Part shown: positions 28,451 through 30,037 of the stretch, in pieces
How positions within the stretch are numbered: the first letter of the stretch is position 1
How the letters are laid out: each line of letters starts with the position of its first letter
Assembly (NCBI RefSeq): GCF_009711445.1
Contig: NZ_SMMC01000202.1
Span: 1 to 46,744 of the forward strand
Source: Curvivirga aplysinae
GTDB taxonomy: Bacteria; Pseudomonadota; Alphaproteobacteria; UBA8366; Aestuariispiraceae
DNA: 46,744 nucleotides
Reading direction: 5' to 3'
Position numbers and translations under genes: made by a program
The notes under the pieces: model-generated
Told to the model about the DNA's origin: nothing
What the model saw: the letters and a program-made list of their open reading frames with translations, nothing else
Database searches by the model: none

Positions 28451-29683
28451 TTACTCCGCAGCCAATGTGATTGGCGACAATCCTTTTTTAAGTTTTTTGC
28501 AATACCAGTCTACGAATTGGATAACACCGCTTTCTTGGGTCGGTGAATATGGTCCTGGTTCGTAAATTGGGCTATTAATACCTTGTTGGTTATCTTCAAC
28601 AACGCGACGGTCTTCGTCATTTGTTGCTTCCCAAACCTCAGTCAAGCGTTTGATATCGTAATCCACACCTTCAACGGCATCTTTGTTAACAAGCCATTTT
28701 GTTGTGACTTCTGTTTCTGTCGGACTTACCGGGGTTACACGGAAGACGATAGAGTGATCAGGAAGGAAATGGTTCCAAGTTGTTGGATAATGGAATTTAA
28801 CCAATGCGCCCGCATCTGGAAGAGGAATGCGTCCCAAAGGTTTTGTCACGGCTGGTTTTGTGTCCATAGTATAGCTTTGTGCGCCATCTTTTAATGGCAT
28901 ACGTGCTAGGCGATATTGTCCATCTTGGTTGATGTGGAATTTAGACGTTAATCCAACAGCTTCACATCGGTCAAAATGGGCCTGTAAATGTTCAGGTGCT
29001 TCATCACCTTCGACGCCAGTAATTGAAGGGTCATCGGAATAGGTGCGACACAATGCCGGATGGTTACCGCCACAATGATAGCATTCGCGATTATTTTCCC
29101 AAACAAGTTTCCAGTTACCGTTTTCGATAATTGTGCTTTCAAAAGCGACTTTGGCATTTTCCAGATCATGTGATTGCAGATAAGGTTCTGCGGCGGTTTT
29201 AAACTCTTCAAAATCTGGAGCATTATCGGCAAGGCAGATATAAACTAAGCCTGCAACTGTACGACAATGGACGGTTTTCAAGCCGTGCTGAGATGGATCA
29301 AATTCAGGTCCCATGTCACGTGCCCAAAGCAAAGATCCGTCCAGTTCATATGTCCATTGGTGATACGGGCATACAAGTTTAGGGGCAGTGCCTTTTGCAA
29401 CTTTGCAAATTACGGAGCCTCTATGACGACATGTATTATGGAATGCGCGGATCTGTTGATCTGCACCTCTGACAATTACCACACTATATTCACCAACTTT
29501 ATAGGTGACAAAGTTGCCGGTTTTTGGGATTTCACAACTTGGAATGGCGAATAACCATTCGCGATAATGAATGTTTTCTAAATCCGCCGCAAAAATTTCC
29601 GGGTCGGTGTAGAACGGTCGCTCCAAAGAATGATTCGGCTTCCGTGTATTTAACAAAGACAACATATTAGGTGTCGTATTCAT
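28451..29683 (-). CDS. gbcA: Glycine betaine monooxygenase, Rieske oxygenase subunit
   Basis: A 410-residue ring-hydroxylating-type oxygenase alpha subunit that demethylates glycine betaine to dimethylglycine with O2, releasing formaldehyde. The Rieske centre is Cys85, His87, Cys105 and His108 (CRHRG ... CPYHQW). The mononuclear iron site has His203 and His208 in [17 protein letters not shown], a signature shared with known GbcA, as are [20 protein letters not shown] and [12 protein letters not shown]. Close alternatives are stachydrine or other betaine demethylases. The TTG at 29701 is rejected because AGGG lies five bases before the ATG at 29683. A cobalamin riboswitch lies in its leader. 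Confidence 0.9.
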
Positions 29684-29754
29684 AATAACCCTGCTCCTCA
29701 AAAAAGGTCGTTATGAATTACGGATTGGCTTTATTCATGGTGGGAACAGGGACC

Positions 29755-29779
29755 GAAAATGCTGCTGCCTAGCATTTTC
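29755..29779 (-). other. Hairpin between riboswitch and gbcA
   Basis: GAAAATGCT and AGCATTTTC form a perfect nine-pair stem with a seven-base loop in the gbcA leader, downstream of the B12 box. On the minus strand it overlaps a 16-codon frame (MKMLGSSIFGPCSHHE, about 29731-29781) that has AGG before its ATG. There is no T run, so it is not an intrinsic terminator. Confidence 0.55.
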
Positions 29780-29799
29780 ATCGGTACCTATATCTCAGC

Positions 29800-30037
29800 C
29801 AAATCGCCCGCCGCAATTCTGTGGACTGTTACATCTAGGCTGGTTTCCGGGCTTAAAGAGTGAAGTGTTACGCCTCATATTTGAACAACCTTCCCGGGCG
29901 GCTAGACCCAGTGGTATATTGTTCAAACTACACCTTATTACCGTTGCGGGGGCAGCACTGGATTCAATTACTTTCACCAGTTTCCCAATTATCTCCACCC
30001 AGTTTTTGATCAGAAAACCGAATGGGGCACCAAAATG
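29800..30037 (-). promoter_or_regulatory. Cobalamin (B12) riboswitch upstream of gbcAB
   Basis: On the minus strand the conserved elements follow in order: GGTGCC near 30030, GGGAAACTGGTGAAAG near 29985, GAATCCAGTGCTGCCCCCGC then AACGGTAA near 29960-29940, CCACTGGG and CCCGGGAAGG near 29910-29890, and the B12 box AAGCCCGGAAACCAGCC near 29855-29838. A CGGCGGGCGAT loop near 29810 fits the kissing-loop arm. All parts of the adenosylcobalamin/B12 aptamer core are present, so it is intact. The gbcA start codon is ~115 bases after it with no other full gene between, so it should repress gbcAB when B12 is high; an intervening 16-codon frame is possible. Confidence 0.94.

Follow-up and report, generated by a model that had tools for sequence, protein, structure and literature searches.

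A cobalamin riboswitch precedes a GbcAB-like Rieske demethylase operon in marine alphaproteobacteria

In a 46,744-nucleotide (nt) stretch of the Curvivirga aplysinae genome (hereafter, the window), a complete cobalamin riboswitch lies ahead of a two-gene operon, its genes spaced five bases apart, that encodes a Rieske oxygenase and a reductase of the kind found in the glycine betaine monooxygenase GbcAB. Comparison of gbcA leaders across related genomes, a check proposed with the original prediction of this riboswitch, recovered the same arrangement in at least 31 other alphaproteobacterial genomes. We propose, with a probability of roughly 70%, that this GbcAB-like operon is a B12-repressed, O2-dependent backup for corrinoid-dependent demethylation of quaternary amines. 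The type of regulation is already known, and the arrangement is widespread.

A cmscan search of the window returned a single RNA family match, to the cobalamin riboswitch RF00174 (109.1 bits, E = 1.5e-26). The match exceeds the gathering score of 31.5 bits and its alignment covers model positions 1–189 of 189, so that the aptamer is complete, as originally read from the minus strand; its end at 30049 lies 12 nt beyond the 30037 first given (Table 1). The oxygenase ATG at 29683, downstream of a Shine–Dalgarno motif, is separated from the aptamer by 137 nt, and the earlier figure of about 115 bases fits instead an upstream in-frame TTG at 29701 (119 nt). The gene layout agrees that the operon comprises the first downstream genes on this strand, with no cobalamin gene between it and the aptamer. 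Upstream of the riboswitch, an FMN reductase gene (30234–30836, plus strand) is the divergent neighbour, and the leader therefore probably starts between that gene and the aptamer. A simple scan of 29600–30300, which is weak evidence, found neither a sigma-70-like promoter nor a transcription terminator, and a reading of the leader as a transcription terminator was dropped on the latter result. The E-value, together with the reappearance of a riboswitch at this position in 31 further genomes, rules out a chance match, and the assignment of the riboswitch to the oxygenase–reductase operon is supported.

Table 1. Features of the riboswitch–operon locus in window coordinates.
Feature	Position	Strand	Basis
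Cobalamin riboswitch aptamer (RF00174), complete	29821..30049	-	cmscan 109.1 bits
L5 loop strand GCUGCCCCCGCAA, candidate kissing partner of L13	29944..29956	-	sequence; complementarity by eye
P13 regulatory hairpin AAUUGC-GGCGG-GCGAUU, directly 3′ of aptamer	29802..29818	-	sequence
CCCUGUUCC, candidate anti-Shine–Dalgarno strand for GGAGCAGGG (29689-29697)	29743..29751	-	complementarity, window sequence only
5′ arm of start-codon helix, CGUAAUUCAUAA	29711..29722	-	MFE of leader
Shine–Dalgarno GAGGAG	29694..29699	-	sequence
3′ arm of start-codon helix, UUAUGAAUACG, spans oxygenase ATG	29675..29685	-	MFE of leader
Rieske oxygenase gene, group Vb quaternary-amine N-demethylase (GbcA/Stc2-like), 410 aa	28451..29683	-	NF058607, PF00355, PF00848
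GbcB-like FAD/NAD/2Fe-2S reductase gene, 357 aa	27372..28445	-	NF058606, PF00970, PF00175, PF00111

Near orthologues of the oxygenase (48–59% identity) are encoded in 7 of 13 other genomes of Aestuariispiraceae, the family to which both the window and Pacificispira spongiicola belong, and RF00174 lies just upstream in all seven (92–109 bits). Among the best 80 hits in the GTDB genome collection, a sample ranked by similarity and not random, a riboswitch precedes the oxygenase in 25, mostly from roseobacters. A strict B12-box pattern found 21 of these and missed four (L048, L105, L106 and L117), which a profile search and Rfam recovered. Rfam scoring confirmed 13 of the 25 collection aptamers (81–124 bits), and the other 12 were called from the B12-box pattern and profile scores of 152–244 bits. 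With L117 and G010 being one locus, the distinct riboswitch-positive genomes number 32, window included. In Granulosicoccus (L067), counted as riboswitch-negative, a weak hit at about 3850–3995 covers only the latter portion of the leader profile, and Rfam finds no aptamer; this leader is possibly one that has lost it. L013 carries tandem cobalamin riboswitches (3716–3928 and 2857–3063, minus strand), the second of which precedes gbcA, and the open reading frame (ORF) between them (3139–3702) resembles a DUF1636 protein by eye.

On the oxygenase tree, the riboswitch label requires at least 8 changes, against 27 in shuffles, indicating that the riboswitch is clustered on the tree but has been gained or lost several times. 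The window oxygenase is sister to two riboswitch-positive Roseibium genes (support 99/86), and its identity to roseobacter and Roseibium genes reaches 78%, compared with 47–60% to the orthologues of its own family. These sequence relationships suggest horizontal transfer of the oxygenase gene, either with its leader or alone.

Read by eye, the L5 segments GCCC-CCGC are complementary to GCGG-c-GGGC of the P13 hairpin, and most of the other riboswitch-positive leaders have comparable G-rich elements after the aptamer. In the window leader the start codon is buried in a helix, with a probability of 0.03 that the AUG is unpaired; the arms of this helix in the family read CCAUACC on the 5′ side (UUCAUAA in the window) and GGUAUGG on the other (UUAUGAA in the window). 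Across eight family leaders, 90% of the cells in the helix are paired and three pairs have changed on both sides; 8 such cells were counted against 3.4 in shuffles (1 in 500 as high), a control that ignores relatedness, and the close kin L012 and L013 are among the leaders. Sliding the arms lowered pairing to 24–33% in the eight leaders, which speaks against the helix being an artefact. The compensatory changes support start-codon (translational) control in the window's family, and the operon would most likely be regulated at translation start. By contrast, the helix is absent from roseobacter leaders, and when all leaders were folded, mean accessibility of the Shine–Dalgarno and AUG did not differ between riboswitch-positive and riboswitch-negative leaders (0.46 versus 0.44). 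The roseobacter expression platform differs from that of the window's family, and a general effect of the riboswitch on Shine–Dalgarno and AUG accessibility was dropped, leaving the family-specific helix.

We regard it as very improbable that the aptamer is a mere relic or hitchhiker with no regulatory role at gbcA. Loss does occur, given the aptamer remnant at L057 (32 bits by Rfam, counted as marginal), but the other Rfam-scored gbcA leaders reach 81–124 bits with similar gene spacing, the AUG helix covaries, and the simple scan of 29600–30300 found no promoter-like site.

The operon had been called gbcAB. A Rieske oxygenase and its reductase are indeed encoded, but glycine betaine was an assumption: the oxygenase scores 521.6 bits against the NCBIfam GbcA model NF058607, below its cutoff of 670, and is closer to Stc2, the Sinorhizobium meliloti demethylase of stachydrine (proline betaine), with 65% identity over the full length (phmmer, 642.8 bits). 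The reductase scores 359.7 bits against NF058606 (cutoff 500). The closest solved structure is 3n0q (72%), annotated as a 'putative aromatic-ring hydroxylating dioxygenase', followed by Stc2. In group Vb, which comprises the N-demethylating betaine Rieske oxygenases, an Asn replaces the aromatic residue of group Va and a Cys-X-X-Cys lies near the iron (PMC7948474); the motif ENNRECYHC, present in 90 of 90 alignment rows including the window oxygenase, places the enzyme in this group. The same group Vb oxygenase-plus-reductase architecture characterizes the GbcAB glycine betaine monooxygenase of Pseudomonas and Chromohalobacter, from which the window protein differs in falling under the curated NF058607 cutoff. 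A domain scan found only Rieske and reductase domains in the operon products, indicating that the enzyme itself needs no corrinoid.

It is possible, if less than an even chance, that the substrate of the B12-repressed operon is proline betaine (stachydrine) or some further betaine other than glycine betaine, with a different MttB-family enzyme as its counterpart; this alternative concerns the substrate and is compatible with a backup role. The identity to Stc2 and the shortfall against the GbcA cutoff speak for it, as does the existence of MttB-family enzymes for other quaternary amines (MtcB and MtyB, cited in PMC12478193) and of up to 16 MttB paralogues in riboswitch-positive genomes. The window enzyme shares with Stc2 the Cys pair and Trp353, and differs at residue 223, which is Ala in Stc2 and Thr here. 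Against a substrate like that of Stc2, the window oxygenase falls outside the Stc2 clade on the tree; Stc2 sits in a separate, riboswitch-free clade of 34 rows with frequent LysR neighbours. Moreover, the riboswitch-positive family member L014 scores 631 bits, making it the riboswitch-positive branch nearest to the curated GbcA model, and because it shares the same switch, that branch at least may plausibly act on glycine betaine. Glycine betaine is likewise a plausible substrate of the window enzyme.

A B12-repressed backup presupposes a B12-dependent system to replace. B12-dependent demethylation of glycine betaine by MtgBCD, with the corrinoid protein MtgC, was described in 2025 in R. pomeroyi and roseobacters (PMC12478193). 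That work, which also covers the split methionine synthase of roseobacters, supplies the route that gbcAB would replace; it regards GbcAB as an uncommon alternative, used by other organisms, and makes no riboswitch link, the word 'riboswitch' occurring only in a reference title. The window genome encodes an MtgC orthologue. A second ORF comes immediately after it, where DUF1638 stands in R. pomeroyi, and the genome also encodes ten PF06253 (MttB-family) proteins and one MtgD-like pterin domain (contig C48). A corrinoid system for the same task is thus present, 'same task' assuming the substrate. MetH is absent from the window genome. Of the two corrinoid-dependent counterparts named in the original prediction, the betaine methyltransferase side holds in the form of MtgBCD, and MetH was rejected as the partner because this genome lacks it.

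MtgC occurs in 32 of 32 riboswitch-positive and 25 of 40 riboswitch-negative genomes (Fisher P = 5e-5, shared ancestry ignored), and at least three PF06253 genes occur in 28 of 30 and 6 of 40, respectively (2e-11, again ignoring shared ancestry). Phylogenetic pairing left four to five independent pairs, of which one to two differed, in the expected direction and too few for significance; the differing pairs agree in direction for MtgC and, in all but one of 200 pairings, for PF06253. The presence of MtgC in 25 riboswitch-negative genomes indicates that MtgC does not require the switch.

Shortage of B12 could instead matter through methionine and one-carbon (C1) metabolism, which would fail as MtgCDE or MetH stop and methyl-folate is trapped; betaine oxidation would then supply formaldehyde or C1 units and glycine, and would not serve as a replacement for betaine catabolism. 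The formaldehyde yielded by GbcAB (PMC12478193) fits such a role, and in the MetH-less window genome methionine synthesis probably runs on the corrinoid MtgCDE, with a core-MetE-like ORF that could sustain methionine without B12. We nevertheless consider this explanation unlikely: GbcAB would not cure a loss of methionine, and MetH scores over the cutoff in 9 of 32 riboswitch-positive genomes (30 of 40 riboswitch-negative ones, shared ancestry again ignored) and is absent from the other 23, so that the switch does not follow the type of methionine synthase. The core-MetE-like ORF itself (C24:74–1132, minus strand; 352 aa) is short and resembles MetE in its C-terminal part alone, and no cobalamin riboswitch was found on its contig, C24; it is a possible B12-independent methionine synthase.

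Four cobalamin riboswitches are present in the 3.56-Mb draft of the window genome. The second precedes a DUF1636 gene (Pfam) and an ABC-transporter set that, by sequence, looks like B12 uptake, and the third precedes ORFs resembling a cobalt ECF transporter. The fourth lies at the start of contig C12 (L007:2–217, plus strand), before an ORF (249–512, plus strand) for an 87-aa product with no Pfam match, which a chemotaxis-receptor-like gene follows. In Marivivens niveibacter (L053), a cobalamin riboswitch (3395–3578, minus strand) stands ahead of nrdHIE, an operon for class Ib ribonucleotide reductase (532–3363, minus strand; NrdE by Pfam, NrdH and NrdI from sequence reading), and this unit adjoins, and diverges from, the riboswitch–gbcAB operon.

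Pseudomonas GbcAB is regulated by the AraC-type GbdR. LysR, TetR or GbdR-like (DJ-1/AraC) regulators accompany 33 of 54 riboswitch-negative loci and none of 25 riboswitch-positive ones (uncorrected for ancestry), and no neighbour beyond the operon itself recurs widely at riboswitch-positive loci. This last result, along with the distribution of B12 synthesis genes, bears on the idea that gbcAB is derepressed to feed glycine, by way of 5-aminolevulinate, and methyl groups into B12 synthesis. Aminolevulinate is made from glycine in Alphaproteobacteria, betaine stimulates industrial B12 production, and CobH is encoded in 27 of 32 riboswitch-positive genomes. However, the five genomes without CobH also lack CobJ over the cutoff and are therefore probably B12 auxotrophs; that they retain the switch argues against a precursor role, which we judge improbable, and fits a backup role.

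How the backup would operate can be outlined as follows. We infer that the class-I-like riboswitch of the 5′ leader silences the operon in the presence of adenosylcobalamin or some other cobalamin. With B12 available, the betaine methyl group would pass from an MttB-family methyltransferase to MtgC and on to MtgD and tetrahydrofolate, a route that could also feed methionine synthesis. When B12 runs out, the corrinoid route would halt and the switch would free the start codon, upon which the Rieske oxygenase and reductase would use O2 and NAD(P)H to demethylate betaine, releasing formaldehyde along with the demethylated compound. The cell would in effect treat the operon as a B12-independent functional substitute, like nrdHIEF or metE.

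Isozymes of B12-dependent enzymes form an established class of the cobalamin regulon, according to a comparative riboswitch survey (PMC3766115), and the logic of a B12-independent isozyme, from which the original prediction argued, gains from MtgC in all 32 genomes, the riboswitch–nrdHIE unit of L053 and the five genomes without CobH and CobJ. As in B12-riboswitch control of metE and of nrdAB or nrdHIEF, the same RNA family lies directly ahead of the first gene, the operon enzyme is cobalamin-free and the genome encodes, at another locus, a system that does this job with cobalamin; L053 has both kinds next to each other. Unlike metE and nrd, the operon here encodes a Rieske demethylase that is catabolic and depends on O2. 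It is paired with a multi-protein corrinoid methyltransferase instead of a one-for-one isozyme, and the two routes yield different products, formaldehyde from the Rieske route and methyl-tetrahydrofolate (methyl-THF) from the corrinoid route. The open-access literature searched contained no description of a link between a cobalamin riboswitch and gbcA or betaine demethylase, in line with the initial remark that no described case was known, and betaine goes unmentioned in the main text of PMC3766115.

More broadly, we lean, with only slightly better than even confidence, towards the view that marine alphaproteobacteria (roseobacters and Aestuariispiraceae) switch betaine demethylation between corrinoid and Rieske chemistry, which are unrelated, by direct RNA sensing of B12, so that B12 supply would set the fate of the methyl group. 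Among marine osmolytes glycine betaine is a major one, and its corrinoid-dependent demethylation in aerobic marine bacteria became known only in 2025. If the proposal is true, a catabolic oxygenase joins the known B12-repressed substitutes, and B12 supply would govern whether betaine methyl groups reach methyl-THF and methionine or end as formaldehyde. It also predicts which roseobacters, auxotrophs included, remain able to use betaines under B12 scarcity. The use of betaine, the flow of one-carbon units and the availability of vitamin B12 would then form a single linked and testable system.
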